From Rhynchonema sp. JSB1_4 (lineage: Eukaryota; Nematoda; Chromadorea; Monhysterida; Xyalidae), in the NCBI GenBank assembly GCA_030248065.1, contig JASAMV010002589.1, positions 1 to 64,000 on the forward strand: a stretch of 64,000 nucleotides of DNA. Direction: 5' to 3'. Shown one piece after another: positions 6,385 to 63,844 of the stretch; position 1 is the stretch's first letter; the number at the start of each line of letters is the position of its first letter. The position numbers and the translations under genes were made by a program. A model generated the notes under the pieces. That model searched no databases. It saw nothing but the letters and a program-made list of their open reading frames with translations, and was not told where the DNA came from.

Positions 6385-6506
6385 TAAAATCGTGATCTGG
6401 TTCTTTCGTGATGTTCCACGATTTCATTTGTACAGAAATGTATAAAACACAGGATATTGTTGCGTATTAAAACGGTACATACCTGAAGAGAGGATAATCG
6501 GCAAAA

Positions 6507-6512
6507 AATAAA
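6507..6512 (+). promoter_or_regulatory. Probable polyadenylation signal AATAAA
   Basis: Canonical AATAAA 123 bp downstream of the dermatopontin-like stop codon. Another AATAAA-like run lies near 6585. Placement fits 3'-end formation of that gene. Confidence 0.5.
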
Positions 6513-8474
6513 GTTTTCTTTCGTACCCTTCTTTTGTCTGTGCATGTCATCAAAAATGATTGAGGGCTGACAAAACGCACATGTACATAAAATAAAACCG
6601 CGTTGTTGAAACGAGAAACGATTATACGGACCAGTCGAAAGTAACTACACCAAAGCTTCGCTGGTTCCGCAAAAACATTAGTGTTGTAAAGAAAGATTGG
6701 AACACGACTTACACTGAGAAAAAATTATGAGACCGAAAGTGTTTCACTCAAACAAATTATTCGTACTTTTGCAAAAGCGATGTAACATCGGTAAAAGCAC
6801 CAGAACATGTTATAGACATTTCAGCATCTGCATCACATTTGTAGCACACCAACAATAAAGGTGAAATACTGAACATTATTATCCCAAACTTTATCCCAGT
6901 CCCTAAATCCTGACGCCACAGCAAAGCTCCAGAAGTGTTGTGAGATCAGCGTTGCGGCGAATGCTTAGCAGTTTGTGTTTGTGGCTGGTTTCGCAAGACG
7001 CCGGTCAGGCCAATTTCACCACACCGCACCCACAACTCACAAATCACAACTTTTTACAACATGGCCTGTATTGCACCCAGACAGCCGTTTACGTGGGCGC
7101 CCATGGCAAGCGCAAAGGTGCACACTATGTATTTGACGTGAAAGTTTTGCCCATAAGCTGAAAACAACGTCTCAAACGCGCAAAATTTGGTTTGTCGGTG
7201 TAATGCCGATAAGTTATAGAACAAAACAGGCACGGTACTCAATAAACGTTCCATCAGCGTCATCAGGCGTACGCAGGGCGTGCGCAACAGCAGAAATAGC
7301 TGAGCTACCCACACAATGGGGCACCTAAACGCTGGCTACCGCTCGCTTTCACAGATGTTCATTGCGCACAAAACTAACCAAAGTGTCGCGCCCGAAATTT
7401 ACACTTTCGTACCATGAGACCGCGTTCCATTGGTACGAATGGAATGCTCAGAAGAGTTGTCAGTCGAGAAACGTGAGGTGCGTTTCCCCGGAGCGGAACC
7501 AAAGGCCCAGCTCAATGTCTGACTTGTGTGCACGGCATCCTTAGAAAAACTGGCCAACTAAATTTTTTCTTCACACGTTTGCCCGCGTTTGTGGTGTAAA
7601 CGACGACGACCAGAGAACCAAAATGCGACCATACGGCCTTGCCTGCGACTGAGTTTTCCCAATCGTAACATTCTTAGATTTGTCTGGTTCCTATCCAGCT
7701 GGTATTACATCTACATACTTACGTGGACGCAACCAAAAACCAACAGTTTTGGTGTCTGCCGGTGTTGAGCTTTAGATCAACTTGCTCATTCGCTCGCTCC
7801 GTGCTGGCTTCAAATGTATAAGTAGTCAGTCACTTTTTTGTGCGGGCCCAAGCGTGTTTTCAACACTGTTGCCCCCAATCCAACGTAAAAGTGTACACAT
7901 TCTGTAACTTGTGCGCCCCCCCCCACGCCCCTCAATCGCCCGTCCCCCAGAACCACGGACGTGGCCGGCAGCTATCGGCGACAGCCCCAGCCGGAGTTGC
8001 GACATTCGACTGCGTCGGCCCTAGATCAGATCGATAGGATACGCGAACGGATATCATCACCACGCGGTAACAGGGCGTGAACTTGTTGTGAAAATCTTGA
8101 TTAGTTTGGTTTGTCGGAATGAAACATCTGCTTAACGATTGGGCTAATAGTTGATATCACTTGATATCAGCAGTTGCTTTACACTGAGTGGGAAAATCGC
8201 GAAACGGAGGACGTGAAACGAACCTTTCATTTGAAAAATCTGGTGTGTGAAGCGTGTTACTCTGTTGGGGATCATAGTGAACGATCGGCATGGTGCTGAG
8301 TCTGAATGGATGAAGCACCGTTGAAGGTCTAAATCTCTTGTCGATTTTGATCGACTTTGAAATTGTATTGATCGCGTGCGTCAACCATCTGGTAATGACT
8401 CGCCTCATGTCTACCCATCGTTTCGAACAAATCATTTATTTTCAGTGGTGACCGCGATCTACATCCCACCCACC
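6513..8474. other. No recognisable gene
   Basis: No family match or convincing exon chain was found on either strand. A C-rich patch lies around 7917-7925. The 3' part presumably holds the 5' region of the gene starting at 8475. Confidence 0.45.
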
Positions 8475-17913: not shown

Positions 17914-20900
17914 TTTTTCTTATTTTACTTTTTTGGCAATTCAAACTAAAAGTGGTTCTTTCGGTGAAAACACAGACTAGAGATATGCACGTGACGGACA
18001 TCCTTTTATATTTTTGCGCGCAAAAAACATACAGTATACGATTATCAGTATTACGCGCTCATGCAGGAATTATTTCTAATCACCAAAAAAACGTTTTTGT
18101 TCCGGGTCAAAGAGGTCAAAGTGCATATAGCACGTGCGCATGTCGCGGATCAACTTAGTTGGCAAGGGGGGGGGTGTGACGTTTTTTATGATGTTTGTCA
18201 AGGCGATTTTTATTGCCAGAACTTCATCGAAGGCGACATGATGCCTACTGTGGTCAAGGGCTGTTCCTTTCCTCGTCTGATTTTCAAAGCTGTGGGACGG
18301 ATGCGTTGCGGTTGCGTGGTAACTAAAATACCAAGACGAACATCTTGAACAAGAGAGTGCATGCTTCAGGTGAATTTGAAACAGATACCGTATACTTTCA
18401 TTGTTTTAAAATAATGCACCACTTATTGACGCCAAAAACCGCGATTTACGGATAGTTAAAAAAACTACCATCCGACTGGGTACTTTTTCGTGCACAAAAA
18501 CTGACTTTGTAACTTTGTTTTACATAGTATCAGTTTCACTGGGTGCGACTTAGTTTTATTATTCGTAATTTGTTTTTGCGCGGCGCCAACGAGCAACAGC
18601 GTGCATTTCTTATTCCTCTCAGACGTGAACATTTGTGGGTTTCATTTCTTTTATTCATGTACTTTTGTCATTTAATATGTGCATATAATCCGTTTGACTT
18701 TGATGGTACAATGAACTAATTGGAATATCTGATGAAAACTTTCTTTATCTCATCCCAATGAGATGATTAGAAACGGGCACAAATTGAGTGATTAGAGTAG
18801 AGAATGGTGTTTTCTTCGCACAATATTCGATCATTTGGTGTCACTAAACACAGTCAATCAATCAAGTTGGCAAATCTGGGTTCCGGTGGGTTTGGAACAA
18901 CATTGTTCTCCAGTCTTGAGCCGTTTTTGTCACACAAGTGCAGAATAGTGTCTACGCTGCTGCTGAGCTCGGCTGTGAAACATCAAGCATGGTTGGCTGA
19001 GCCATTTCTTTGACATTTAGAAATTTGACATTTGACGTTTTTGCGCGTGCGGTACTAGCGTTCGGTCACTGATTTTTACACGCATGATAAATGGTCACAC
19101 GCATGATAAATGTTCTATGCGTTGGTGTGGCCATTTTACGCTGGCCAGTCAGTCCAGTGTTGCTGACCGGTCCGAAGTCAGTCCGAAGCTAACCGGCATT
19201 TGCATGACGGCTACATGAGGCGATCAGACCGGCAGCGATTGCAGAGGTCGTGTGTTCGAGCCGTCGCTGACCAAACCGGGCCCCGATGGTTTTCCGCGTC
19301 GATCGTCAGTCGTACATAAATTGCCTACAGTACCAGCTGCAATTTTTGGCTGATTGAGGTCTGCGCCTGCAGCGCCTGCAGGCTCAAGAGCCTGCGCAGG
19401 CTCAATACAAAACATAGCAGCCTGCAGAGCCTGCAGGCTCGGCGCAGGCTTCGCAGGCTCAGTGTATAAGCGGTCGCAGGCGCAGGCTCATGAGCCTGCA
19501 GCGCCTGCAGGCTCTGCAGGCTCGGCGGATGCACAGCTGCGCTTGCTTGCTTTTGTGACATTTAGTCATGTACCTTTTATGGACGGAGTGCGTATTATCT
19601 CGTATTTAGCCATTAGTATATGGATATTTGTTGCATGTTTTATTAGTACATGATTACCTTTCTTATAGTTTTCTGCTGAAACTTGACAAAAAACGCGAAA
19701 AGAAACTTGTTTCTTACTAAACAGTGAATCTGGATAAAATGTGGCCTTATCGACAGTTTTATTGCTTATTCTTTCAACGCTTTGATTTTTGTATAAATGC
19801 TTCAAACAACTGAGAAAAACTGAATTAAAATCATATCACAAAGCACAAAAAGTAGCTGTGCATCCGCCGAGCCTGCAGAGCCTGCAGGCGCTGCAGGCTC
19901 ATGAGCCTGCGCCTGCGACCGCTTATACACTGGGCCTGCGAAGCCTGCGCCGAGCCTGCAGGCTCTGCAGGCTGCTATGTTTTGTATTGAGCCTGCGCAG
20001 GCTCGTGAGCATGCAGGCTCTGCAGGCGCAGACCTCAATCAGCCAAAAATTGCAGCTGGTACTGTATATGTATTCCAACATTTTCGCCCTATAATGTGAT
20101 ATTTTGTCTGGGTTTGTAGTTTGCTGCTGATGCTGCTTATTTGTGTCCGTGGTAGATTTGGTTCCCTTAACTTTGACGAAATGATGGCATGTGAAGGGAA
20201 CGAAAAACATTGTGAAATCGACGTAAAGTTCGGCTGCGTGAACTCAAAGTGAAAAGAGTTTGTTTGATTAGATTTTCCTGTTTCGATGATTTATATTTCG
20301 GGTTTATGTTGCACTCGCTTCGCTGACGTTTCGCTATGTTTCGCATAGCAATTCACAGTTGGTATCAGCTAAAACCTCACCACACCAGCACTAAATAACC
20401 GGACATTCTCTCCAACACTTTCGTTGACAAACAATGCGTGATAATCATCTTGACCAGAAAAATTTGTGCTCAGACCGGTTTCACCCATTCTCTTGTACAA
20501 AACACCAGCAACGTCACAAGCCTTTCACACACTCAACCAGACACACACAGAGTGCGAGTTCAAAAATTGCAAAATCGAATGGAAATGGTTGATAAGTTAA
20601 TAATGCAGTACTTTGTGCACCAGAAAATATACTTGGGGTTGGTTAAAATGTCAAATGTGTTCAGCGCAAAAAAAAGCTTCAAGCCCACCCCCGACAAATT
20701 GTACATTTTGCACAATAATAGTGAAAGAACACAAAACACATCGCAATGATGTGGTTTGGCTGGGTTACATAATGTGTTGAATTGAAAGTAAAGTGTATGC
20801 ACACATATGTAGGTGCTGCAGAGTTGTTGAAATTATGAACTAGATGTCGGCAACCCATTAATACATTCTTAGTAACCTAATGTTGTTGAGAACTGTGTGT

Positions 20901-31582: not shown

Positions 31583-32386
31583 TTGATCTGATGACCTGAT
31601 TTGATTACAGCTACATACAAGCCTCAGCTTTGCTATCGCGCGCGTGCCTTTCAGGGCTCCCTCACATTCATTTGGATTTTATGACGTAATGCTTTGATTG
31701 CTGTGTGAGTGAATAGTGGGATATGTACTACACTATCATTAAGCGACTTCACGACTAGTGGTATTCATGTCGCATTCTGGGACCACCTTCTGGATGCAAT
31801 TCTGACTGGCTGCTTTCCCTCCACCAAAGCCAAAGCAGTAACAATTATCAATAAAGAAAACAAGATAGTCCAAAGGCAATAGTTTGTATCATTTGGCATA
31901 AGATGCACGAAATTAACAGACAACATAAACATTTATCACAATAGAAAAACACCCGGAATAATAATAAAGCCGATAAAAAATAGAAAAGTAAAAAGAAAAA
32001 TAAAAAATATAAATTAGTAATAAGCAATCTCTAAAAAAAAAACACCAACTCCCCTTTTTTATAAAACTTATCTATCAACAAAACAAACAACAAACACAAA
32101 CCAACACAAAAAACCAAAAAACAAACAACAACAAAAACCCCCTACAAACTGGAAAAGAGCTGTTCATAAGGCACGCTCGCTCGTAAGCGGAGCGCTTAAA
32201 TATCTGGAAGCTAGACGTGCTGGTCGCGGAAACTTTGTCTCTTTGTTGCCCACCATGACAACATTTCCTCGAAACTGAGTCCCTTCGTTCGATGCAACTT
32301 TGTATAACCGTTCAGTTCTAGCTCGTTCGCGAGTGGTGGTGCTTGCGGTTTCATCACGCTTGGAATCAGCCGTCGAGCACCGCTTA

Positions 32387-33407: not shown

Positions 33408-35675
33408 ATGGCCCATTCATCCCATTCACGCACAACTCTACGCGCGGGCCTCATCAACACCGGACAGGACCGGTGTCCGTTCAGTTCTGCCATACGAATC
33501 ACTCCAAACTGTTCGCACCCTGGTCAACAAGAGGAAATTGTATCCTTGGTAAGTCAAGATGTGCGTTATTTTATCGGAAGAAGAATGCAAAAGAGTGCTT
33601 TGGAGGCGACAGACATTACAGAAATCAAATAGAGTCCTCGAATGCAAAATACATATAAGGCACTGTATATGAAAAAGTGGGTATATACGGTAGATGAGTT
33701 TGGCTGGTTGCTCCACTCAACAGTAATACCGTTGATCATTTCCGTACACCGCAGATTTTCCGTCTGGCTGGCATCAACATCGACTTGGTCAATCTACGTC
33801 ACATGAATTTCCCCGATTACCTAGAGTTCGTCTACAACGGCACTGTGGACACACTCATCGGAGCATTCACGCCGACGACTGAACGACTAAGGGTGAGGCG
33901 CGCCAGTCACCGTACCGTAATCTACCTTCGAAACCGAAATGTAGGCGATCGAAATGAACGACACCCTTGTTCGCATTACAGTACACCAAAGCGTCCGTCA
34001 ACATTCGAGCGTGCGACGAGCTAATGGGCATTCTTGCGAGCGACAGTCCCACACCCGATCTAATGCACACGACTGTCAAGTCATTGCTCGTATATGACAA
34101 ACTGATTTGGGTACTGTTTGTGCTCGTGTTCCTGTTGACGAGGGGGTACACTTGGCTGTGTGACGGATTGGCGAGAACACGAGGGACCAATACCAACAGG
34201 TCTGAGACCGAATAAACACCTGACAGCACAGTATTTACGTATTTGGAGCCATCGTCAGTAGACGAAACTATCGGGTGTACCACCTTTAAACGATGCACAC
34301 AAGCAAATACCGTAAAAACCTAAATACAGCCCCCCCCCCCGGAATAGAGCCCCCCCCCCCGTAATACAGCCCCCCCAAAAAGGGGTCAGTGAATTAATAG
34401 AGCCCCCCCGGAATAGAGCCCCCCCAAAGTAACATCCCCTATACTGTAGTGTATTAAGGCTTGATAGTGGTGTACAGGTACATTTATGCACGTTTGTTGT
34501 TTGTTCAGAGCACATAATACGCCTCCTATTGACGAATAGACACGAATAAATGCGGTTGCAAGCGAAAAAACATCCTTTCAAACCCGTTTTTAGGGGTTTT
34601 TGGGGGGTATTTCTGGGAACAATTTTTCAGGTTCGGGTCAGTGAATTAATAGAGGCCCCCCCCGGAATAGAGCCCCCCCCGTAATAGAGCCCCCCCAAAA
34701 TGGGGTCAGTGAGTTAATAGAGCCCCCCCCTTCTATTTAGGTTTTTACGGCACTTAGGTGTACAAGCATGGGACATGATCTGCTGTCCCCTTTTACATTT
34801 TGGTGACAATTAAGCAGTTTCGTCTGAGACGATGGCATTGCCTGGCGGCCAGTCGTTCGAGACACCGCAGATCCCAGACACAGTGAGTCATTCCAACGTT
34901 ACACAAAGCCCATGTTCGCAGATGTGAGCTGACGAGGTCCAAGTCGTACGCGTTCCACGTGATGATCGTTGGGTATTTCATGATGTTGTACGGCGGACTG
35001 TACGGCAATGGCATACTTGCCGGTGTGTTGACCGAGACAAAAGTGCATCCTTTCGATACGTTGGATGAGCTGATCGACCTGCTGCAGAGTGGCCGAGTTC
35101 GATTGAGCGCAATCAAGGAGGGAGGCCATTGGGCGTTGCAGTCAAACGAAATGCGACGTCTTAAGACCACATTGGACAAACACCCGCCGTTGTGGATCGA
35201 TTACGGCAAGACCGTTCTGCGTGAGTACGGTGATCAGATTCGAGAAGGTCGACTTGTGTTCATTGAACCGGTGGTGCATGCGAGCGAGATCAGCAAAGCA
35301 TTATGCGGCACCAGGATAGTGCCTCTGCCAGAACTGGGCGCTGTACGAAACGGACTGTTGTTCGCACCGAATGTGTCCGATCACGTGATCGCACGCATCA
35401 ATCTGGCGATCGCTGAGTCGTATGTCGGACAGCAGATGATCCGGTTGAGATATGAGGAGTTGGTGGCGAGGGAGCAAGTTAAGTCTTGCAGCAAGACGAC
35501 GGATGACAACAACAATGCTGGTGGACTAATGAAAATCGGATTCTGGAATGCGCTCGGCAGTTTTACGTTTTTGGCATCCGGCCTCACCGCGGCTGGCTGC
35601 ACATTTCTGGGCGAGATGTTCTGGAGACAAGTATGTGTGTCGAACTTGAAGATGACGCGGCGTCAGCTTGGCTAA
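33408..35675 (+). CDS. Ionotropic-receptor-like protein A
   Basis: Exons 33408-33548, 33755-33892, 33982-34199 and 34922-35675 join to 416 aa. The fold order is that of an ionotropic glutamate receptor core without an amino-terminal domain. S1 starts at TTLRAGL, an IFRLAGINIDL block and an F.PTTERLR motif hold the expected ligand-contact Arg, and M1 is LLVYDKLIWVLFVLVFLLTRGY. M3 is VGYFMMLYGGLYGNGILAGVLT, where YGNGILAGVLT stands in for the family's SYTANLAAFLT. S2 begins PFDTLDELIDLL, and M4 is near the end (ALGSFTFLASGLTAAG). Only about 25 residues separate M1 from M3, too few for a re-entrant pore loop. No signal peptide is visible at this ATG, so an upstream exon is possible. It is the first of three paralogues. 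Its third intron holds a C-rich inverted-repeat element. Confidence 0.8.
34310..34750. mobile_element. C-rich inverted-repeat element inside receptor A intron 3
   Basis: The ends CCGTAAAAACCTAAATA (34310) and the reverse complement (ending 34750) are inverted copies. The inside carries repeated GGAATAGAGCCCCCCC units and GGGGTCAGTGAATTAATAG motifs near both ends, with about 200 bp of unique DNA between. A related C-rich block occurs at 44790-44935, and a looser one within 53362-53572. No open reading frame for a transposase is seen. Confidence 0.75.
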
Positions 35676-37081: not shown

Positions 37082-39476
37082 ATGTCCAACACGTTGCGCG
37101 TGGGTCAGCTTAGCGAGTGTCGTGGACTGAGTCCGACGCCAAGATGTCCGTACCCAGGATTTTCTGAAGAAATGTCTTCAATAGTAGGTCAGCGTTCTGT
37201 AAGTCTTTTACTACCAGTCGTACATACTGTATACCATTATAATCTAAGGTAGATAATGGTGTACTGTTCTCTAGATCTTTCGTCTGGCCGGTGTCAACAT
37301 CGATCTGAAGAAGCACGTCTTCAGCAGCGTCACCGAAACATTAAAGATGATATACAACGGTACTGTCGATACAATGATCACGAGCTTGACGCCAACAAGC
37401 GAACGATTGAAGGTAAATTAGGCACAAATTCACTGTATTCCATTTGGACAACATTTGTTCTTCAGTCGGCCAAGGCGTCCGACAACATCCGCGCTTGGGA
37501 CGAACCGTTGGCGCTTGGCGGTGGTTGCAGCAGACAACCCCACCCCCGACCTGATGTACATCACGGTCAAGTCACTGTTGGTGTATGACCAATGGATTTG
37601 GGCTTTGTTCGTGCTCGTGTTTCTGTTAACGAGGAGCTACACTTGGGTGTGTGGCCGTTTCGCAGTTGCGTGCAAGAAGAACCAGAGGTGAATAGTTTCT
37701 TTGTAGGAATTTCTAATGTATTATACCTTAGATGATCAAAGGAAATGGAAACAGCACGACCGCGTTTGAATTCATTTACAGCTGTTCTCTAAGGGACATA
37801 ATTCATATTTGGAAAATGGGACCATTTTTTATTGCTGGAAGTGAAAGCCGCGATCAAGGTGACCATTCTTCAAAAAGAAGTACCGTCGAAAAGTGTCAAA
37901 TGAACTGTCAAAAAGGGTGCCAAAGGTGCACCTCCGGGAGTATAAGCACCAACTGATCTAGCCGCCCCCGAGCGTGATTTTCAGGCATCGTACGGAAGCA
38001 GCACATCACCGAATGAACGAAGTTGGAAAATCGATGTTGCACGATATGATCGCCACAGCGACGGAGTAAGTTGAAAAATCATAAGTCCTTCAAAAAGGTT
38101 TATTTCGCGATTCTGAAACCGGTTCTGGAACCGGTCAAATTTGCCGTATTGGTTTATGTTTCATTGAAGGGAACCAGTACCAGTGTCCACTCATAGAGGT
38201 CGATACCTTTGGTGGACCACCTCCTGTTGCGTCCCCAATGTACATAGTCTTATATATGTAATCATCGAAACATTTCTAGTTCGATGTGTGAACAAAAGTG
38301 TCAACGGATCGGAAGTCAAATGAAAATGTTTCGGTGATTGCATATATAAGACTACATACTGTATGTACATTGTAGACGCAATAAAAGGTGGTCCACCAAA
38401 GGTATCGACCTGCGAGTGGACACCGATGCTGGTGCACTTTAATGAAGCATAAACCAATACGGCAAATTAGACGGGTTCCAGAACCGGTTTCAGAATCGCG
38501 AAATAAGTCTTTTTGAAGGACTTATGATTTTTCAACTTACGTACGATGCCTGAAAATCACGCTCGGGGGGGGGGGCGGCTAGATCAGTTGGTGCTTATAC
38601 TCCCGGAGGTGCACCTTTGGCACACTTTTTGACAGTTCATTTGACACTGTTCGACGGTACTTCTTTTTGAAGGATGGTCACCTTGATTGCGGCTTTCACT
38701 TCCAGCAATAAAAAATGGTCCCATTTTCCAAATATGAATTATGTCCCTTGCACTTTAACGATGTCAAAGTCCTACGCGTTCCACGCCACACTCGTCGGCT
38801 ACTTTATGTTGCTGTTCAGTGGATTGTATGGAAATGGCATTTTGGCTGGTCTGTTGACCGACAACAAGCAGCATCCGTTCGATACGTTGGATGAACTGAT
38901 CGAATTGCTGAACAGTGGAAGGATCAGATTAAGTAGCGTTGAGGGATTTGGCTTTTGGGCATCTGCGTCGAGAGAGATGCAGCGTTTGAAAGCAACGTTC
39001 CATCTAAATCCGCCGTTGTGGGTCGATGACAAGAAAGCTATAGTGGATGAGCACAGCGAAGCGATCAGAGAAGGTCGACTTGTGTACATTGAACCGGTGG
39101 TCTATGCGAGCGAAATCAGCAAAGCATTATGTGGCACCAGGGTAGTGCCTCTGCCAGAACTGGGCGCTGCACGAAACGGATTGTTGTTCGCACCGAATGT
39201 GTCCGATCACGTGATCGCACGCATCAATCTGGCGATCGCTGAGTCGTACGTCGGACAACAGATGATCCGGTTGAGATATGAGGAATTAAGACAAAGGGAA
39301 CACACTGAGACTTGCAGCAAGAAGGAAGAGGACAAGCACGATGTTGGTGGCTGACGAAAATTGGATTCTGGAATGCGCTTGGCAGTTTTGGCTTCTTGGC
39401 TTCTGGTCTTGCTCTCGCTTCGATTGCCTTTGTGTGTGAGAAGATCTGGGGTGCCATAATACTGCAATGTGCGTAG
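37082..39476 (+). pseudogene. Ionotropic-receptor-like B, broken copy
   Basis: Exon remnants align with receptors A and C: 37082-37183 (MSNTLRVGQLSEC...), 37275-37412, 37466-37687, then a fourth exon resuming at about 38750 and running to about 39476. Three lesions are visible. A 7-bp duplication (TTGGCGC-type, about 37508-37521) makes exon 3 222 nt long instead of the 215 of copy C and shifts the frame. A 959-bp palindrome (37791-38749) sits exactly at the start of the fourth exon and separates its acceptor (ACAG at 37777-37780) from the coding part. One base is missing near 39351, giving TGA at 39352 where A and C continue into M4. The remaining M3/S2 sequence is well preserved, so inactivation appears recent. 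Rescue by alternative splicing cannot be excluded. Confidence 0.8.
37791..38749. mobile_element. 0.96-kb palindromic insertion in receptor B
   Basis: The left end AAGGGACATAATTCATATTT reads inverted at the right end (…ATTATGTCCCTT). The arms of roughly 450 bp match almost throughout, with a centre near 38275-38320. The left arm alone contains an extra segment, 37994-38066. Flanks TGTTCTCTAA and TGCACTTTAA are similar and could be a decayed target duplication, but that is weak. The element splits a conserved exon of the receptor. Confidence 0.85.
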
Positions 39477-39748
39477 CTAATAAAAGATTATGGCATCAAT
39501 TGCCTGTATGTATACATGTAGCTCAGCTGTGCTCGGCAGTGGAACTTCTGGGAGATTTTCCCGAACAATGTTTTAGGCTCAAGCTGGTTTCTCTGGAAGT
39601 GATTAAGTCACAGCAATAAAGTTAAAGGAGCAAAAAATCTCACCGCCACCATATTACTGTCATTAATTGTTTGATTTCTTATATTATGTCATTATAATCG
39701 GTTAACTTGATCCTGTCTGCACACACCATTGTTTGGTGTACCGTTCGT

Positions 39749-42700
39749 CACAACAAAAAAACGTGTGGGATGCTACTTGATGCACTTTGCATATACTAGC
39801 ATCAGATGAGTTCATTTGCATCCCAATGGGCTTTGCATTTGCTAGCATCACGAAAAAAAATGAGAAAGAAATTGTTTTGGAAGAGAAAAGATACCAACAG
39901 ATATAGAAAGGCTTGCCGCCATTTGACTTATTTTTTCAAGTTTTCGACGAAAAAAACTGTGTCGAAAAAATTTGAACTGTCGGCGTCGGAACTTTTCGGA
40001 AAAAATCTCAATAAAAAGGGTATTTTGGCCATACCTACCGTGCTTGCATTCCAAGTAACGTATGTGCAGTACTACATAAGCCAAACCGACCCACACGCAC
40101 ATAAAACAAGCTGGTGCACCCAAGAACGTGTTCTGTTAGGCTTTCATGTGGATCTGTGCCACATACCTACAGCGCTTGCGTTCCAAGTAATGTACGTACA
40201 GTGCTGAGCCAAAACGAACCACACGCACACAAAACAAGCTGGTGCACCCAAGAAGGCGTTCTGTTTGGCTCTCATGTAGATCTGTGCCCATACCTACAGT
40301 GCTTGCATTCCAAGTAATGTACGTACGGTACTAAACCAAAACGAACCACACGCACACAAAACAAGCCGGTGCGCCCAAGAAAGCGTTCCGTTTGGATTAC
40401 ATGTGGATCTGTGTCCATACTTACAGTGCTTGCATTCCAAGTAATGTATGTACAGTACTAAGCCGAAACGAACCACACGCACACAAAACAAGCCGGTGCG
40501 CCCAAGAAAGCGTTCCGTTTGGATTACATGTGGATCTGTGTCCATACTTACAGTGCTTGCATTCCAAGTAATGTATGTACAGTACTAAGCCGAAACGAAC
40601 CCACATGCACACAAAACAAGCTGGTGCACCCAAGAAGGTGTTCTGTTAGGCTTTCATGTGGATCTGTGCCACATACCTACAGTGCTTGCATTCCAAGTAA
40701 TGTATGTACAGTACTAAGCAGAAAAGGAACCCACATGCACACAAAACAAGCTGGTGCACCCAAGAAGGTGTTCTTTTAGGCTTTCATGTGGATCTGTGCC
40801 ACATACCTACAGTGCTTGCATTCCAAGTAATGTATGTACAGTACTAAGCCGAAACGAACCCACATGCACACAAAACAAGCTGGTGCACCCAAGAAGGTGT
40901 TCTGTTAGGCTTTCATGTGGATCTGTGCCACATACCTACAGTGCTTGCATTCCAAGTAATGTATGTACAGTACTAAGCCGAAACGAACCCACATGCACAC
41001 AAAACAAGCTGGTGCACCCAAGAAGGTGTTCTGTTAGGCTTTCATGTGGATCTGTGCCACATACCTACAGTGCTTGCATTCCAAGTAATGTATGTACAGT
41101 ACTAAGCCGAAACGAACCCACATGCACACAAAACAAGCTGTCACCCAAAAGGTTTCTTTAGCTTTCATGGATCTGTGCCCTACCTACATGCTTCTTCCAA
41201 TATTCGACCGAACCCACATGCACACAAAACAAGCTGATGCACCCAAGAAGGTGTTCTGTTAGGCTTTCATGTGGATCTGTGCCACATACCTACAGTGCTT
41301 GCATTCCAAGTAACGTATGTACAGTACTAAGCCAAACCAACTCACACGCACACAAAACAAGCTGGTGCACCCAAGAAGGTGTTCTGTTAGGCTTTCATGT
41401 GGATCTGTGCCACATACCTACAGTGCTTGCATTCCAAGTAATGTATGTACAGTACTAAGCCGAAACGAACCCACATGCACACAAAACAAGCTGGTGCACC
41501 CAAGAAGGTGTTCCGTTTGGATTACATGTGGATCTGTGCCCATACCTACAGTGCTTGCATTCCAAGTAATGTACGTACGGTACTAAGCCAAAACGAACCA
41601 CACGCACACAAAACAAGCCGGTGCGCCCAAGAAAGCGTTCCGTTTGGATTACATGTGGATCTTGCCCATACCTACAGTGCTTGCATTCCAAGTAATGTAC
41701 GTACAGTACTAACCCAAAACGAACCACACGCACACAAAACAAGCTGGTGCACCCAAGAAGGTGTTCTGTTAGGCTTTCATGTGGATCTGTGCAACATACC
41801 CACCGTGCTTGCTTTCCAAGTAATGTACGTGCGGTACTAAGCCAAAACAAACCACACGCACACAAAACAAGCTGGTGCACCCAAGAAAGCGTTCCGTTTG
41901 GATTACATGTGGATCTGTGCCCATACCTACAGTGCTTGCATTCCAAGTAATGTACGTACAGCACTAAGCCAAACCAACCCACACGCACACAAAACAAGCC
42001 GGTGCGCCCAAGAAAGCGTTCCGTTTGGATTACATGTGGATCTGTGCCCATACCTACAGTGCTTGCATTCCAAGTAATGTACGTACAGTACTAAGCCAAA
42101 CCAACCCACACGCACACAAAACAAGCTGGTGCACCCAAGAAGGTGTTCTGTTAGGCTTTCATGTGGATCTGTGCCACATACCTACAGTGCTTGCATTCCA
42201 AGTAATGTATGTACAGTACTAAGCCGAAACGAACCCACATGCACACAAAACAAGCTGATGCACCCAAGAAGGTGTTCTGTTAGGCTTTCATGTGGATCTG
42301 TGCCACATACCTACAGTGCTTGCATTCCAAGTAATGTATGTACAGTACTAAGCCAAAACGAACCACACGCACACAAAACAAGCTGGTGCACCCAAGAAGG
42401 TGTTCTGTTTGGCTCTCATGTGGATCTGTGCCCATACCTACCGTGCTTGCATTCCAAGTAATGTACGTACAGTACTAACCCAAAACGAACCCACACGCAC
42501 ACAAAACAAGCCGGTGCGCCCAAGAAAGCGTTCCGTTTGCATTACATGTGGATCTGTGCCCATACCTACAGTGCTTGCATTCCAAGTAATGTACGTACAG
42601 TACTAAGCCAAACCAACCCACACGCACACAAAACAAGCTGGTGCACCCAAGAAGGTGTTCTGTTTGGCTTTCATGTGGATCTGTGCCACATACCTACAGT

Positions 42701-45144
42701 GCTTGCATTCCAAGTAATGTATGTACAGTACTAAGCCGAAACGAACCCACATGCACACAAAACAAGCTGGTGCACCCAAGAAGGTGTTCTGTTAGGCTTT
42801 CATGTGGATCTGTGCCACATACCTACAGTGCTTGCATTCCAAGTAATGTATGTACAGTACTAAGCCAAACCAACCCACACGCACACAAAACAAGCTGGTG
42901 CACCCAAGAAGGTGTTCTGTTAGGCTTTCATGTGGATCTGTGCCACATACCTACAGTGCTTGCATTCCAAGTAATGTATGTACAGTACTAAGCCGAAACG
43001 AACCCACACGCACACAAAACAAGCTGGTGCACCCAAGAAGGTGTTCTGTTAGGCTTTCATGTGGATCTGTGCCACATACCTACAGTGCTTGCATTCCAAG
43101 TAATGTATGTACAGTACTAAGCCGAAACGAACCCACATGCACACAAAACAAGCTGGTGCACCCAAGAAGGTGTTCTGTTAGGCTTTCATGTGGATCTGTG
43201 CCACATACCTACAGTGCTTGCATTCCAAGTAATGTATGTACAGTACTAAGCCGAAACGAACCCACATGCACACAAAACAAGCTGATGCACCCAAGAAGGT
43301 GTTCTGTTAGGCTTTCATGTGGATCTGTGCCACATACCTACAGTGCTTGCATTCCAAGTAACGTATGTACAGTACTAAGCCAAACCAACTCACACGCACA
43401 CAAAACAAGCTGGTGCACCCAAGAAGGTGTTCTGTTAGGCTTTCATGTGGATCTGTGCCACATACCTACAGTGCTTGCATTCCAAGTAATGTATGTACAG
43501 TACTAAGCCGAAACGAACCCACATGCACACAAAACAAGCTGGTGCACCCAAGAAGGTGTTCCGTTTGGATTACATGTGGATCTGTGCCCATACCTACAGT
43601 GCTTGCATTCCAAGTAATGTACGTACGGTACTAAGCCAAAACGAACCACACGCACACAAAACAAGCCGGTGCGCCCAAGAAAGCGTTCCGTTTGGATTAC
43701 ATGTGGATCTGTGCCCATACCTACAGTGCTTGCATTCCAAGTAATGTACGTACAGTACTAAGCCAAACCAACCCACACGCACACAAAACAAGCTGGTGCA
43801 CCCAAGAAGGTGTTCTGTTAGGCTTTCATGTGGATCTGTGCCACATACCTACAGTGCTTGCATTCCAAGTAATGTATGTACAGTACTAAGCCGAAACGAA
43901 CCCACATGCACACAAAACAAGCTGGTGCACCCAAGAAGGTGTTCTGTTAGGCTTTCATGTGGATCTGTGCCACATACCTACAGTGCTTGCATTCCAAGTA
44001 ATGTATGTACAGTACTAAGCCGAAACGAACCCACATGCACACAAAACAAGCTGGTGCACCCAAGAAGGTGTTCTGTTAGGCTTTCATGTGGATCTGTGCC
44101 ACATACCTACAGTGCTTGCATTCCAAGTAATGTATGTACAGTACTAAGCCAAAACGAACCACACGCACACAAAACAAGCCGGTGCGCCCAAGAAGGTGTT
44201 CTGTTAGGCTTTCATGTGGATCTGTGCCACATACCTACAGTGCTTGCATTCCAAGTAATTTATGTACAGTACTAAGCCAAACCAACCCACACGCACACAA
44301 AACAAGCTGGTGCACCCAAGAAGGTGTTCTGTTAGGCTTTCATGTGGATCTGTGCCACATACCTACAGTGCTTGCATTCCAAGTAATGTATGTACAGTAC
44401 TAAGCCGAAACGAACCCACATGCACACAAAACAAGCTGGTGCACCCAAGAAGGTGTTCCGTTTGGATTACATGTGGATCTGTGCCCATACCTACAGTGCT
44501 TGCATTCCAAGTAATGTACGTACGGTACTAAGCCAAAACGAACCACACGCACACAAAACAAGCCGGTGCGCCCAAGAAAGCGTTCCGTTTGGATTACATG
44601 TGGATCTGTGCCCATACCTACAGTGCTTGCATTCCAAGTAATGTACGTACAGTACTAAGCCAAACCAACCCACACGCACACAAAACAAGCTGGTGCACCC
44701 AAGAAGGTGTTCTGTTAGGCTTTCATGTGGATCTGTGCCACATACCTACAGTGCTTGCATTCCAAGTAATGTATGTACAGTACTAAGCAGTACTTGCCCC
44801 CCGCCCCGGAATAAGCCCCCCCCCAAGTGGGCCGGGGGCAGTGAATTAATAGTGCCCCCCAGAATAAGCCCCCGCCCCGGAACAAGCCCCCCCGGTGGGG
44901 GCAGTGAGTGAAAAGAGCCCCCCCCAAAAAAACACCGAAACCTAGCCGTCATCTGACCGAAACAAGTGATTTTTGACCACCTGCAACGTTGATGTAGTCG
45001 GATGCTACATCAACCTGCATCAGAAACTGCATCAAGCGCATCAACGGGTCTTTGATGTAAACTTGATGCAAACTTCCTTATACTCCTGCATCAACTTTGC
45101 ATCAGACTTGCATCAAGTAGCATCCCACACGTTTTTTTGTTGTG
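39749..45144. mobile_element. 5.4-kb non-autonomous DNA element carrying a satellite array
   Basis: The termini are perfect 36-bp inverted repeats (39749-39784 and 45109-45144, starting CACAACAAAAAAACGTGTGG). Subterminal DNA on both sides is packed with short TTGATGCA/GCATC units, the arrangement often seen as transposase-binding sites. Inside lie about 37 copies of a 128-bp repeat (40030-44788) and a C-rich block (44790-44935). No transposase frame is present, so it would need help from elsewhere. I could not find a convincing target-site duplication next to the ends. It sits between receptor pseudogene B and receptor C. Confidence 0.85.
40030..44788. repeat. 128-bp satellite array, about 37 units
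   Basis: Head-to-tail units of 128 bp, each containing CACACAAAACAAGCTGGTGC, TGTGGATCTGTGCC and TGCTTGCATTCCAAGTAATG. Unit variants differ mainly at AAGGTGTTCTGTTAGGCTTTC versus AAAGCGTTCCGTTTGGATTAC. Variant order repeats at larger spacing (897 and 2048 bp), showing higher-order amplification. One unit around 41140-41215 is badly degraded. Long open frames in all directions come from the repeat length and are not genes. Read lengths may have mis-set the copy number. Confidence 0.95.
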
Positions 45145-45778
45145 TATCGTATTATTGCTGACAATCATCGTGTTCCGTTTCAGTAGGCGGCAATGAGAAA
45201 TACTTTCACCATTAGCGACTTTGCATGCTGGTGCGACTGCCTGGAACTGCAGCTGCGTTTCAAAGACTTCTGGTCTTTGTTCCAGTCTTCCACGCACGCA
45301 AATTTTCTCATATTGAATTTCGTGAAAGCAGAAAGTACAAAAATATGACTAAATCTATTTTCTTCACACAGGAGATGGGTATCTCTGGTGAGTCAAGATT
45401 TCAACTCTGAGACATGACAACTTTTACGCTGGTTAAAATAAGTGCTCGAACTCTATTACAAAATATGATTCAAACAAAATTTTCTCCTCATGGTCCACAA
45501 GCTCAAAATGGATAAGTATAATTACACCTTAACACAACCACAGCTACTGTTTTGCTGTCCCGGCAGTCAATTTCAACTGTCTCGGGCGTAACATGATCCA
45601 ATCTGACAATATTTGTCCTAACATCAAATTATTGTCGGTTGAGGTCCGGATGTTTAGTTTGTCTAAATAAAAGCATGTTTCTTGTCAAACAATCAGTCAA
45701 AAAATCGTGAGCGTTCGTTCTCTCACGTTCGTAGTGCATCAAACATTAGTTTTAGCCGTCACCCAAGTGTGTGAAGTT

Positions 45779-47254
45779 ATGATCACTCCAACTGAACAAA
45801 CGTCCAGGAACCTGAGCGTGGCCTACTTCAGCCGATGCCCGTTTACTTCTGGACTGAGGAGCACACCAAAATGTCCGTACCCGGGATTGGAACAAGAGAT
45901 AGCTTCAATGGTACGTCAATTCTCTGGCTCATCTTAGAGTGGCAGAGTGTGGAAGTTGAGATAGACAATCTAACTTTCAAGATATTTCGTCTGGCTGGTG
46001 TCAACTTTGATCTGAAGCATTATCCAAACTACAGCACCCTCAGCGATATGTTGATGACAATATACAACGGCACCTTCGATACGATTATCGTTAGTTTGAC
46101 TCCAACAACCGAACGATTGAAGGTGTGTTCATGTCTTTATTTGTACGACCTCCAAGGGTCGGCGGATAAATAATGTTTGTTCTTCAGTCGGCCAAGGCGT
46201 CCGACAACATCCGAGCGTGGGACGAACCGTTGGCGGTGGTTGCAGCAGACAACCCCATCCCCGACCTGATGCACTCCACGGTCAAGTCATTGTTGGTGTA
46301 TGACCAATGGATCTGGGCGCTGTTCGCGTTCGTGTTTCTGTTGACGAGGGGCTACACCTGGATTTGTGGTGCATTTTCGGTCGAAGGAAAGAAGAACCAG
46401 AGGTATTGTCCACTATTTTAGGGACTTGAAAAATGCAGTTGGCGACATCACCACCGTTGTGCAGTAAACGCGAAGTTTTCCAGATCCTATTCCATTACAG
46501 ATATGCTCTAACGACGTCAAAATCTTACGCGTTCCACGTCACGATTGTGGGATACTTCACGTTGCTGTTCAGTGGATTGTATGGAAATGGAATTCTGGCA
46601 GGTCTTTTGACCGAAAACAAGTTGCACTCATTCAACACGTTAGATGAACTGATCGAATTGCTCAATGGCGGTAAGATAAGATTAAGTGCCGTGGACGGGA
46701 TGAGCATCTGGGAATCTGAGACCAGTGAAATACAGCGCCTCAAAGCGACGTTTCGACGAAATCCACCGTTGTGGGTTTATGGCACAAGGCAGGTTGTGAC
46801 CAAATACAACCAGTCAATCATAGAGGGTCGACTTGTGTACATTGATTCGGTGCGGCAACTAAATAGAAACTTCCAAGGAATATGTGCTACGCGAAGGGTG
46901 CCTCTGCCAGAACTGGGCGCTGCACGAAACGGACTATTGTTCGCACCGAATGTGTCCGATCACGTGATCGCACGCATCAATCTGGCGATCGCTGAGTCGT
47001 ACGTCGGACAACAGATGATCCGCTTGAGATATCAGAAATTAGGACAAAGGGAACGGACTGAGACTTGCAGCAAGAAGGATGAGGACGACAAAAATGTTGG
47101 TGGATTGGTGAAAATTGGAATCTTGAATGCGCTCGGCGGTTTTGCCTTCTTGGCGGCTGGTCTCGTCTTTGCTGCGCTTGCGTTACTGGGCGAAAAGTCC
47201 TGGGAACGAATCTGTTGGACGCTGCAGTCAGGTGAACGAAAAATCCGAGAGTGA
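45779..47254 (+). CDS. Ionotropic-receptor-like protein C
   Basis: Exons 45779-45910, 45982-46122, 46188-46402 and 46501-47254 join in phase to 413 aa, with exon borders matching receptor A exactly. S1 contains IFRLAGVNFDL and LTPTTERLK (ligand-contact Arg). M1 is LLVYDQWIWALFAFVFLLTRGY, M3 is VGYFTLLFSGLYGNGILAGLLT, S2 starts FNTLDELIELL, and M4 is ALGGFAFLAAGLVFAALALL. As in A, there is no room for a pore loop between M1 and M3. The S2 segment beginning VPLPELGAARNGLLFAPNV is almost identical in DNA to A and B, whereas flanking parts are much more diverged. The ATG chosen gives the shortest form. The frame is open upstream to about 45707 and a signal-peptide exon may be missing. AATAAA lies 303 bp past the stop. 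Confidence 0.82.
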
Positions 47255-58659: not shown

Positions 58660-61600
58660 ATGGGAACAGAAACTATGTTTACCGAAATTAAAATCCAATC
58701 TGAAATGGATCGCGCCGCGACTGACATGATAACGGCGACAAGCCAGCTGCAAATGGAAGCGGCAAGCGTCAGAAATGATCGGCCGAATTGGAAATCTTAT
58801 TTATCGTTGGTTTTGTTTGTTTGCCATTTAGCGATTGATTCCTATTTGATATTTGCAGCTTTTCAATACATTTTAGCAGCCAGATGATTCCCCAAGAAGA
58901 TTACAATTTCATCACGTCGTACGAGGACAGCAAAGGCGACACGCGACGCGAAATGATCCAACGACAACAATGCGCGCGAACTTTTCTCAATTTGATGACG
59001 AACGTGAGCAAAATGCAAACAGTCAGATACGTGCTGACGTTAATCGATGACATGCTGCAGGTAATGATGGCAGGCAACAACAACAAATTAAAATGGGGCC
59101 CTAAAAATGTTCCTTAAAATAGGAGCTGGCTGGCTGGGGCGGGCATTGGGGGGCAGGGCAGGGCGCAGAGGTCGCAATCGGGCCGGGTTTGGCCTAGGCA
59201 TGGGGGCAATACCCAACACCCAATACCCAATATCACCCAATACCCAATATCCAATACCTGGTATTGGGTACCCAATACCCAATACCAGGTATTGGGTGCC
59301 GGTATTGGGTATTGGGTGTGGGCCTGGTATTGGGTATTGGGTGTTGGATTGGGTCTTTCCCAGGTATTGGGTGCCACCCAATACCCCTGTTTTGCCCTAT
59401 TTTTCTCCTCCAGAGCCCTGAAATGGTGAAAAATTTTCAATTTTTTAGCCTTTGAAATCGCTTTTTTAGCTGCAATCAGGGTTTTTTTTTCAAAATTCAC
59501 TAGGTGCAACTTAGGTGCAACCCCCAAATTTTTAGGTGCAAGCTGGCCAAAGTAGGTGCAACCCCTATTTTGGACAAAAAACGCCAATTTTAGGCTTTTT
59601 TGCCAGGTTGTGTGTTCAATGCTATTTGCGTGCTTTTAGAAGTTCAATAAAGTTGTAACGCAATGAATGCCTTTTCCTTTAGCAAAAGCAAACTTTTCAG
59701 GGAAAGTTCAACATTTTGTAGCACATTTTGTACTAGTTTCATTATTGAGAACCGATTGAGAAGAAAACGAAACAGTAAAATTTTCATGCCACCATATCCA
59801 CATTTGAGGGTCACGTACGAATCAGTTACTTTCGCTGTTCAACTGTGTGGGTATCTAATACTGTTGTCATGCTCTACTCTACTTCTAGTCAGTGTAGTTC
59901 CTGGCGGGAAGGGGGTCCGGGTCCCCTCCTAAGGTACACTAACCGCCGCGACCAAGGTACACTAGTACACTAACCGCCGCACCAGGTACACCAACCGCCG
60001 CAATTTTTGCCTAAAATATGAATTTTTAGCCCAAGATGGGCATTTTAGGCCTAAAATGGGTAATTTTCAGGTCAATGTTGTCAAAAGTCGCCAAAATACC
60101 CTATTTATGGAGAATTTTTTCCAAAATAAGGGCAAAAATAGGACAATTTTTTTTACCTCAAAGCACTTTTTCCTGAATTTTGGTCTTCCCCCCTCCTTCC
60201 CTCACAGGGAGGTACATAACCGCCGCACCGACAAAGTGGGTAGGTTCACTAACCGCCTCGCCGGACCAGGAACTACACTGATCCTAGTACATGTACACAG
60301 CATGTATTTGTTTTGAATCTTATCGCCAGCACACCAGGTACTAACTGTGTACGAAATCAATCAATCAGATCAATATTTTTTGTCGATGTCGACCAAATGC
60401 TTCGATGGAGTTTATTGGAAGGAATGAAAAGCCGCGCAGCGCATTTTTTTGTTTCTAAGCTTTCCAACCTTAAAAGATGCTGTATAAATGCTAAATTAAG
60501 CAAAATAAGGGCCTAAAATTTTAGGTGCAACCTTGCACCTAACCCTGAATTTTTAGGTGCAATTCTGATTTTTTAGGTGCAAATTGCACCTAAAAAGTGT
60601 CTAAAAAAAAACTATGGCTGCAATGTTAAGAAGAATGAGAAATTCAGTCATATTTTACTTAGTATTCGATCAAAAACCCAAAACAGGCCCATTTTTTAAA
60701 CAAGCTTGGAATTTTTGGGTATTGGGTCGGTATTGGGTATTGGGTATTGGGTCTCAACCTGAGTATTGGGTATTGGGTTGGGTCCCATTTGAGGTATTGG
60801 GTTGGGTATTGGGGGTGGGCCCTGGTATTGGGTATTGGGTATTGGCTTGGGTCAAAAAATCGGTATTGCCCCCATGCCTAGTTTGGCCGGCCCGGCCCGG
60901 CCCGAGCCCCCAAATCTCCGGCTCGGCCCGGCCCGAACCCCCAAATCTCCGGCCCGGCCCGGCCCGAATTTTTTGGCTCAGATTTTAACCCAATTTTTGT
61001 CATAATTTTTGCGATTTTTTTGAACCTATTTTTTGGTTGAAAACAACGGTGTTGCAGGGGGTTGGGGGTCCCCCCTAGGTATAGTAGGTAGGTAGGTTGA
61101 CGCTCCATCCTGGTACACTAGGTAGGTCGCCGCCCGGCGGCTAGTACAGTAAGTTGCGATTTTTGGCTCAAAATGGTATATAAAATCGGTACTTTTCACT
61201 CCAAATAGGCGATAAAAGTCACTTTTTGAGGTGGAAGATTTGACCGATTTTTGCCCCTTTTTGGAAAAAAACTTCATAAAAAGGGTATTTTGGCGACTTG
61301 TGAGAACATTGACCTAAAAATCACACATTTTAGGCCTAAAAATACCCCTTTTTGGGCCTAACAATGCCTGTTTTAGGCAAAAATTGGGGGAGATAGCGTA
61401 CCCGGAGGTAGGGTTAGAGGTCGGGGGTACCCGACACCCGACATCTGAAAATACCCGACACCCGACACCCGACATTTGAGAAAAAAAGCCGACACCCGAC
61501 ACCCGACAGTTCCAAAAAAAAACCCGACACCCGACATCTAGTTTTTGGAAAAAACCCGACACCCGACACCTGTTTTTGGACCAGAAACAGGCGACTTTTT

Positions 61601-63844
61601 GCTCCTTCGCACTATTAGTGCAATTTTTTGGATCAAGTGACTGAATTCAAGTATTTTCACACAAAATAAAACCAAAATGACACATTCTTAGTCTTCGGAA
61701 ACATTTGGTTCGAAGAAAATTTTCTCTCAATATTCTTTTCTCGGCAAAACTGATGTTTTGAACCGTAAGTGTCGGGTGTCGGCTGTCGGGTGTCGGGTCC
61801 CAAAAAACCCGACACCCGACACCTGGAGGCACCCGACACCCGACACCTACACTCTTTTGGCACCCGACACCCGACACCCGACATCTCTCTAACCCTACCC
61901 GGAGGGGGAGGTAGGGGGATTATGTACCATTTGAGGGGGAGATAGCGTACCCGGGGGGACCCCCTCCCCCAGGAACTACACTAGTCTGACGTGGGATGCG
62001 ATGTGTTTGATGCGTTTTAGAAATTTGGGGTGATAGAGGAACAGAGCTTATGTGAAAAGAAATGTACCTACAGATCCGCTCCACTGCACAGAGAATAGCA
62101 TCCACAATAAACAACATTCCAGATTCATCTCGTTTGTGTTTTGCGCACTGCACACACGTTAATCGAAGACGTGATGTTGATTTTCAGGAGGACCGTTCTC
62201 GTGTGGACGTGTTCTGGAATTATGCTCGAAACAAGAAACAATCGGTTTGGGCGCCGTTCCTGATGTTGTTGCGTCGCGATGACGGTTTCGTTGTGAATCA
62301 GACCAGTCGAATAATCACCAAATTAGCGTGTTGGGGCCCCGAACCGCTCGCCGACAGTGATTTAACGACATATTTCACTTTTCTCAAGGAGCAACTGCGT
62401 GCCGCGGTGGGCTATTTCGTTCTCTTACGATTTTTCTCGGTAGTTTTGTTTCTTGATCGTTGCCCGATCTTGCAGGGCAACAGCTACATCCAGACGTCGG
62501 CCCGCTGTCTGCAAATGATGCTGAGATTCGATGATTATCGTGTTGCGTTCGTTAACTTGGACGGCATCGCCACGTTCGTTCTTTATTTTTGGCCGAAATG
62601 ACCATAATTTTCTAATTATCTCCATAATTTTCCAGAATTGTGTCCGTTCTGTCGGGCAAGTGCAACTTCCAGCTGCAATATCAGCTTATTTTCTGCCTGT
62701 GGTGCTTGACGTTCAACTCACAGATCGCTGAACGAATGCACAGGTATTTTGGCTTCACAAATATTTGTTTGCAAATGTTGGTAACTTTTTGACGAAAATA
62801 AGATTTTTTCAATATTATTCCAGATTTGGTGTCGTGCCCACGCTCGCTGATATTTTGTCCGAATCAACCAAAGAGAAAGTCACGCGTATCATACTGGCCA
62901 CATTCCGGGTAAGAATATATTTTGCAGCAGGTACCACTTTGGTTACATTTTGTGCGTAATTTTTTAGCTCGTGTAATTTCAGTTCTCGATCTAGCTAGCT
63001 AATAAATTGACTATTTCTGTTCGATTTTTTCAGAATTTGATCGAGAAAATTGAAGATCGCGAGGTGATGCGTGATGATGCGCTGCAAATGGTTCGCTGAA
63101 TTATGGTTGTTGCTGAATTAAAACCAAAGAAGCTTCGTGCCTCGACCTGATCTTGGGTTGATAATAATCCCAGTTCCAAAGCGTTTCTGAACAGAGGGTA
63201 TTTCTGCAGTATATGACAATTGTTGCAACTTGGCCTCAAGGGTGGAACAAGAGGGTCATCGCCAGTGCGAATTCACCTGATGGCCACACGTGACTTCCCA
63301 ATGAGAATCCATGCTTTTTGCAGGTGCAATGTCGCGTACTCAAAACACTCGAATTGATGGGCGATAAAAAATACGACGATCCCGATCTATCGGACGACAT
63401 TGAGTTTTTGACCGAGAAACTGCACGCAAATGTGCAGGACTTGAGGTGAACATTTGCTACTTTGTTTTGTGGTTGAAGGCCCAATAAAAGCTTAATTTTC
63501 GTCGGGGTTTTGCGATGAAGTTGCAGCACTAATTTCGACCCAGGTCTCCGACCCCCTCCTAATGAAGAGCATTATACTCTGGTCGAAATTAGTGAGTCAG
63601 CTGTATCGAACGGACCCACAAGTGCGGTAGAAAGTTTGACTTCCGTCCGCGGATGTAGCGCTGACAGAATTAATATGAGGCTGTGTCTGTCTGACTAATT
63701 TCCTGCCGCGACATTCAGTTCGTTCGACGAATACTGCACCGAAGTGCGCTCCGGTCGGCTCATGTGGTCGCCGGTGCACAAAAGCGAGAAATTCTGGCGC
63801 GAAAACGCCGCTCGATTCAATGAGAAAAACTTCGAACTAGTCAA
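58660..63844 (+). CDS. ATP6V1H: V-type proton ATPase subunit H (3' end outside window)
   Basis: Exons visible: 58660-58805, 58880-59060, 62188-62406, 62476-62573, 62636-62743, 62824-62908, 63034-63090, 63324-63445, 63719-63844. They encode the first ~380 residues in phase; the last ~90 lie beyond base 64000. Subunit H is a HEAT/armadillo-type helical protein of the cytosolic V1 sector that regulates coupling of ATP hydrolysis to proton pumping. Family landmarks: [117 protein letters not shown] and [15 protein letters not shown]. Second intron, 59061-62187, is repeat-filled; the others are short. Donors of three introns begin GTT (GTTGGT, GTTCGT, GTTCGC). Confidence 0.95.
59200..59390. repeat. 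GGTATTGGGT minisatellite, block 1
   Basis: Arrays of CCCAATACCCAATACC-type units in both orientations inside V-ATPase H intron 2. Preceded by CTAGGCATGGGGGCAATACC, which appears inverted at about 60864-60884. Confidence 0.9.
59890..60280. mobile_element. hAT-like MITE, 391 bp
   Basis: Ends CAGTGTAGTTCCTGG (59890) and CCAGGAACTACACTG (ending 60280) are perfect inverted repeats starting CAGTG, as in hAT elements. The flanking octamers CTTCTAGT and ATCCTAGT match at six of eight positions, consistent with an old 8-bp target duplication. Interior AGGTACACTAACCGCCGC repeats are present. An inverted diverged copy of its body appears around 61060-61984. Confidence 0.8.
60715..60970. repeat. GGTATTGGGT and CGGCCCGGCC low-complexity block 2
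   Basis: Tandem GGTATTGGG units (60715-60865) followed by GGCCCGGCCCGA units (60880-60965), the mirror of block 1. Together they suggest a repeat-bearing element with inverted ends in intron 2 of the V-ATPase gene. Confidence 0.85.
61425..61885. repeat. ACCCGACACCCGACA minisatellite in two blocks
   Basis: Tandem ACCCGACA-type units at about 61425-61575 and 61765-61885, separated by about 190 bp of unique DNA. They are embedded in a copy related to the hAT-like MITE and lie in V-ATPase H intron 2. Confidence 0.9.
63527..63594. repeat. Short hairpin repeat
   Basis: CACTAATTTCGACC at 63527 pairs with GGTCGAAATTAGTG ending 63594 around a short loop, inside the V-ATPase H intron before exon 9. 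A miniature inverted-repeat remnant is likely. Confidence 0.7.

Follow-up and report, generated by a model that had tools for sequence, protein, structure and literature searches.

A 128-bp tandem array carried between the ends of a putative non-autonomous transposon family in the nematode Rhynchonema sp. JSB1_4

Tandem arrays as transposon cargo

The question of how satellite arrays originate and spread is old, and in one model short arrays borne by transposons expand later. Here we describe a 5,396-bp element with internal tandem cargo at positions 39749-45144 of a 64,000-nucleotide stretch of Rhynchonema sp. JSB1_4 DNA (the window), part of contig C1567 in a 204-Mb genome of 5,747 contigs; labels of this kind (C1694 and the like) denote other contigs of the same genome. 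The element is very probably a copy of a non-autonomous cut-and-paste family whose members end in CACAR-(A)n, duplicate 3 bp of the target and bear GATGC boxes near their ends; its cargo is an array of 128-bp units.

Transposons that carry or seed satellites are already known in animals, for example Tetris (PMC4079207) and Helentron-type elements (PMC9659126), though they are rarely so clearly documented. CACTA elements are described with terminal inverted repeats (TIRs), subterminal repeats and 3-bp duplications, and one CACTA-like element of Chenopodium, Jozin, contains in C. quinoa an array of 32.5 units of 171 bp, placed near the 3' end and found in several copies (PMC8978399). Our family resembles Jozin in its TIRs, 3-bp duplication, subterminal repeats and internal satellite DNA array; unlike this 16.5-kb plant element with its tnp2-type transposase, the copies described here are short and non-autonomous, end in CACAR and carry three different repeats (PMC8978399). 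Animal CACTA elements of the TRC type are reported to end in CCC and to duplicate 2 bp of the target (PMC1636069, PMC4298943). One member of the animal CACTA superfamily, SmTRC1, has a tandem-repeat region and truncated copies, and is in this respect comparable to our tandem cargo; unlike SmTRC1 and other TRC elements, with their CCC ends and 2-bp duplications, the present family ends in CACAR and duplicates 3 bp, and the copies read yielded no transposase (PMC1636069). Tetris, a foldback element of Drosophila virilis, is likewise non-autonomous with internal tandem repeats, and has built satellite-like arrays, but its 220-bp repeats lie inside the TIRs, whereas in the present family short TIRs enclose the array (PMC4079207). 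Helentron/DINE elements with central tandem repeats are also mobile and non-autonomous and disperse short arrays, by a Helitron-type movement in contrast to the TIRs and 3-bp duplications seen here (PMC9659126). A search of titles and abstracts, mostly without subscription literature, found neither this family nor another TIR element with three interchangeable repeats.

The element, its relatives and their movement

The original prediction, made from the letters of the window, had placed about 37 head-to-tail 128-bp units between perfect 36-bp inverted ends, and both points were borne out. The two TIRs (39749-39784 and 45109-45144) are 100% complementary over 36 nt at a spacing of 5,324 nt; the repeat finder TRF reports 9.2 copies at 40030-41200 and 28.0 copies at 41209-44788 of a 128/129-bp unit, and cutting the array with BLAST yields 36 units longer than 100 bp plus one 42-bp end piece. 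The split made by TRF falls at about 41140-41210, on a unit that, by eye, is without many single or double bases, as if these had been lost in reading or assembly.

Table 1. Parts of the element in the window, and triplets flanking family members
Feature	Position	Strand	Description
Left flanking triplet	39746..39748	+	CGT; right flanking triplet 45145-45147 is TAT; no target-site duplication
Left TIR	39749..39784	+	36 bp, starts CACAAC; CACARC terminus type also at other loci
Left end region	39749..40029	+	about 281 bp; five GATGC/GCATC boxes in first 110 bp
Tandem array	40030..44788	+	about 37 units of 128/129 bp
Multi-unit duplication	43391..43891	+	501 bp recurring exactly 897 bp (7 units) onward
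Second multi-unit duplication	41209..41662	+	454 bp recurring exactly 2048 bp (16 units) onward
C-rich low-complexity segment	44789..44939	+	joins array to right end; common to most family members read
Right end region	44940..45144	-	205 bp; close to the terminus, GATGC-type boxes at a spacing of about one helical turn
Right TIR	45109..45144	-	36 bp, perfect partner of 39749-39784
3-bp duplications			C1694 TAT; C1722 GCT; C1510 TCC; C1072a TGC; C4026 CCT; C3279 AAT; C2945 CAC
Flank triplets without duplication			window CGT/TAT; C3414 TTG/GTT; C1072b CAA/GTT; C2878 ATT/AAT

The possibility, raised with the original prediction, that the TIR pair is unique to this locus can be set aside, as family ends recur at many loci in genome-wide searches. 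The first 152 bp of the element gave at least 40 matches (best 40 of 63 candidates) and the last 205 bp at least 40 (best 40 of 57 candidates); a B-type right end gave at least 45, at least 33 of them right ends no shorter than 70 bp (best 40 of 53 candidates); a D-type end matched 31 times (31 of 31 candidates). The elements read were sorted into subfamilies by ends and contents: A comprises the window copy, C1694, C1722 and C3414; B comprises C3166, C1072b, C1058, C217, C1419 and C5266 together with the array-free C2945; C comprises C3279, C2285, C1116, C395, C1291 and C881; D comprises C4957, C2049, C2193 and C4650; and C1510 and C1072a form a separate array-free pair. Because the right ends at six loci (C5241, C3166, C2945, C2668, C1419 and C1072b) are 100% identical, and other pairs have ends that are identical at rounding (the left ends of C1116 and C395, both ends of C1510 and C1072a), comparison of the ends suggests that some subfamilies have spread recently. 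The recent activity proposed for this locus is thus suggested by other subfamilies and not by the window copy, which has no target duplication and stands 2-3% from its nearest sister, C1694 (left ends 98% identical, right ends 97%).

Seven of the 11 elements with both termini readable are flanked by an exact 3-bp target duplication, against a chance expectation of about 0.2; outside this count are C3166, whose left terminus is damaged, C2285, which is truncated on the left, the palindromes of C4957, C1924 and C3070, which extend into the flanks, and elements read at one end only, such as C1058, C217, C1419, C5241, C1116 and C395. Two array carriers have relatives of their empty sites. The joined flanks of the C1694 element, with a single TAT, align gap-free over 233 bp, 222 of them identical, to a copy on that contig in which nothing interrupts the sequence. 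For the C1722 element the host is an abundant repeat, and its joined flanks match other copies at 86-88% (best 40 of 308 candidates), with 40 of 40 matches spanning the junction and 35 of 40 running from base 1 to 277. Because seven of 11 elements have the duplication and two array carriers have empty-site relatives, we conclude that the arrays were moved by transposition, from TIR to TIR. TIRs shared by several loci and, at the level of the family, a fixed 3-bp duplication fit a non-autonomous cut-and-paste TIR transposon. Movement of the Helitron type is not known to involve TIRs or a target duplication, and the presence of both here sets the family apart from Helitrons and Helentrons. The joined flanks of the window copy matched only themselves in the genome search, without any empty-site relative. 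The repeat hosting the C1722 element is presumably hAT-like; positions 32148-32240 of the window are 85% identical to it.

The arrays differ widely in size from locus to locus. Counting units above 100 bp in length, the window copy has 36, C1694 nine, C1722 six, the inverted halves of C3414 seven and six, and C3166 42; by array length, the other B elements hold about 30 (C1058), 25 (C1072b), 18 (C217), 18 (C1419) and, partly read, at least eight (C5266). C1510, C1072a and C2945 have family ends and zero 128-bp units. Other loci with ends of this type, looked for in the original prediction, therefore exist, and they hold 0, 6, 9 or up to about 42 units. The right array junction is identical in the window copy, C1694 and C1722; the left one is the same in the window copy and C1694, and a different one is common to C1722 and C3414. 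Exact runs in common with the window array measure 329-389 bp in the A sisters, whereas five B elements all reach 95 bp, and the B arrays share runs of 284-1652 bp among themselves. Since junctions and exact runs are shared within subfamilies, unit numbers differ and duplications of seven and 16 units lie inside the window array, the array was inherited with the element, and its unit number then changed, apparently by blocks of units, after the copies diverged. With common junctions, differing unit numbers and two verified empty sites among the sisters, the rate and step size of array change become measurable against the divergence of the ends.

Within the 310 bp of end DNA, GATGC or GCATC occurs 14 times (five in the left 110 bp, nine in the right 200 bp) versus 1.9 times per kb elsewhere in the window, where a scan in steps of 10 finds at most three per 110-bp stretch and four per 200-bp stretch. 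The DNA at both ends had been called rich in GATGCA; the enrichment stands, and GATGC is the better spelling of the motif. Counted in bases from the right end, boxes start at 20, 30, 41, 52, 75, 86, 102, 111, 123, 133, 139 and 149, the first four being spaced by 10, 11 and 11 bp, about one helix turn. When 13 right ends drawn from every subfamily are aligned and boxes are defined on the window copy as GATGC, GATGT or their complements, column conservation is 0.927 in boxes versus 0.840 elsewhere, and 0.977 versus 0.796 within bases 12-70; none of 204 circular shifts reached the observed value. We predict that the boxes are binding sites for the transposase, and they offer a testable candidate site for this missing enzyme.

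Searches with the window unit (344 matches, 36 of 36 candidates) and with a diverged unit from C3002 (340 matches, 38 of 38 candidates) place the 128-bp unit on at least 13 contigs, the same 13 in both among the matches listed; a 29-base core pattern with up to two mismatches has 270 matches in the genome versus none in a backward control. Among the matches listed, a family end lies within a few kb of the units on 11 of the 13 contigs, and the proposed tie between unit and element withstood the search, as genome-wide occurrence without a link to the TIR was not seen. On C2858 about 10 kb separate the family end from the last unit listed, the intervening stretch lying outside the region read, and single diverged units also occur in C3166, C1072b, C2975 and C2668. 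The term satellite suits the form, a long tandem array of one unit, and does not suit the abundance: 344 matches amount to about 44 kb of 204 Mb, or roughly 0.02% of a genome assembly in which arrays may be collapsed or cut. Rfam has no family matching the unit at gathering score, the sole match reaching 20 bits versus 57.

Accounts of the arrays and of the family

We envisage that a transposase supplied from elsewhere would bind the boxes and the TIRs and move everything from TIR to TIR, and that between moves the array would grow or shrink by gain or loss of multi-unit blocks, through unequal exchange or repair. The 128-bp array would reside mainly inside the element instead of forming a satellite of its own in the genome. 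The window copy is a large-array form, its missing duplication possibly resulting from exchange between copies or a later change in the flank. A non-autonomous element amplifying a satellite, as originally proposed, is thus supported with respect to the family ends, the moved arrays and the change in unit number, and not with respect to a transposase partner or abundance.

Several observations weigh against this account. The window copy itself has no target duplication (CGT versus TAT), and neither do C3414, C1072b and C2878. About five diverged units stand on C3002, where the 3.5 kb read contain no family end. Unit numbers are assembly counts, and contigs break inside such arrays; the assembly also includes palindromes that extend into flanks. 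The definition of the boxes, taken from the window copy, may favour them slightly in the conservation test. Finally, no transposase or autonomous copy, and hence no partner of the kind expected from the shared TIR, was recognised in the part of the family read, in stop-to-stop, intron-free frames inspected mostly by eye (C3166, C4026, C3279, C2285, C4957, C2013, C2878, C1116, C395, C2193, C4650 and twelve partly read contigs; C1072b, C1058, C217 and C1419 were left out).

It is quite possible, though it falls a little short of probable, that the family is a true member of CACTA/EnSpm and the array an internal tandem cargo of the sort known from such elements, as in the C. quinoa element with 32.5 units of 171 bp (PMC8978399). 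The CAC- termini, the 3-bp duplications in seven of 11 elements and the dense subterminal repeats all fit. However, the termini read CACAA or CACAG, not CACTA, and the TRC elements of animals, as far as they are described, end in CCC and duplicate 2 bp (PMC1636069, PMC4298943), features which this family does not share; PF02992 and PF13960, used as a test for Transposase_21/tnp2, had no match in the genome, though none of 14 control genomes matched either. Because of the CACAR ends, the described TRC features and the failure to find a transposase, we treat the superfamily assignment as tentative; the working likeness to CACTA elements is good. More tentatively, the transposon may have captured a pre-existing satellite from elsewhere in the genome and not bred it. 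That three unrelated tandem repeats serve as cargo is in keeping with capture, as are long runs of one of them, a 253-bp repeat, on C1458 and C1610, and the degenerate 128-bp units on C3002, which have no family end in the stretch read. On the other hand, two genome searches list no larger, end-free 128-bp array, the internal multi-unit duplications show growth in place, and the C1458 run leaves its contig, so that an element may surround it.

That the window copy is a chimera of assembly or recombination, in which left and right halves of different elements were joined through the array, we consider improbable. Its lack of a target duplication would be explained, and at sites separating A from C ends it is a mixture of both; the assembly has other odd joins, for example on C3070, C1924 and C4957. 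However, both flanks of the window copy lie within one cluster of related gene copies, and both array junctions match those of the intact sister C1694. A single clean switch between A- and C-type sequence in the ends of the window copy was looked for and not seen, the diagnostic sites being interspersed. A foldback element, with repeats in long inverted arms, is a very unlikely description of the window copy, whose inverted repeat spans only 36 bp and whose array lies between the TIRs in a single orientation, not inside inverted arms. Within the family C3414 is the exception, a near-perfect palindrome of two array-bearing left halves bounded exactly by TIRs (97% over 3.4 kb), although it too has no target duplication. 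Returning to the non-autonomous family with moved and locally altered arrays, we speculate, with considerable doubt, that it forms a lineage outside the described animal CACTA groups and acts as a satellite shuttle, in which the 108-, 128- and 253-bp repeats would be exchangeable modules enlarged inside the element by multi-unit duplication, and the element would be nearly the sole genomic home of the 128-bp unit. If this were true, the birth of a satellite could be traced through sister insertions whose unit numbers run from 0 to about 42.

Further cargo and surroundings

Family members carry two further tandem repeats, of 108 and 253 bp, in modular combinations; the set of three shows that tandem cargo can be combined. 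In five of six array-bearing B elements (the exception being C1419) the 128-bp array immediately adjoins a 108-bp array of opposite orientation. C elements have the 253-bp repeat followed by the 108-bp repeat: about five and 19 units, respectively, in C3279, and about seven and at least 33 in C1116, where the 108-bp units are 98-100% identical to the query. A genome search with about 1.7 units of the 253-bp repeat gave 77 matches (13 of 13 candidates). Because this repeat runs for more than 8 kb to beyond the contig end on C1458, and for more than 4 kb on C1610, where the listed family end is about 15 kb away, it may possibly exist outside the element as well. A 22-bp box common to the 128- and 253-bp units (20 of 22 positions) was dropped as a candidate, its conservation being 0.948 versus 0.938 for the whole unit. 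At 119126-122800 of C1116 the 108-bp repeat, whose length is divisible by three, is open in one frame for at least 1,225 codons; this is an effect of repetition and perhaps meaningless. On C3002, another tandem repeat with a 128-bp period, without match to the unit, adjoins the diverged units at 6000-6520.

Five frames compared with Pfam gave a weak adenain-like match in the C4957 flank and, beside the C2049 element, AAA matches below threshold. There, at about 14740-14918 of the contig, an AAA+ coding stretch, which we take to be ORC1/CDC6-like, adjoins the D-type element, its Pfam matches lying below the curated cut-offs. Large palindromes on C3070, C1924 and C4957 pass the element edge into the flanks (95-98% in C3070 and C1924) and represent inverted duplications or assembly joins. 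In the window, the minisatellite-rich segments at 59200-61900 and 34300-34750 resemble the filling of D-type elements (C2193, C4957, C4650) and are possibly decayed relatives.

Three related gene-like stretches, with 72-79% DNA identity over up to 700 bp, stand in a row at 33986-35624, 37123-39450 and 45850-47204, and the element sits between the second and the third. They presumably are genes of the ionotropic-receptor type; a neighbouring frame of 273 amino acids has no relative at E 0.001 and no Pfam family. A second, foldback-like element adjoins the array element at 37791-38749; its inverted repeat measures about 210 bp (95%) and its middle is palindromic. A 213-bp inverted repeat at 19326-20066 (98% identity) probably marks a small transposon.

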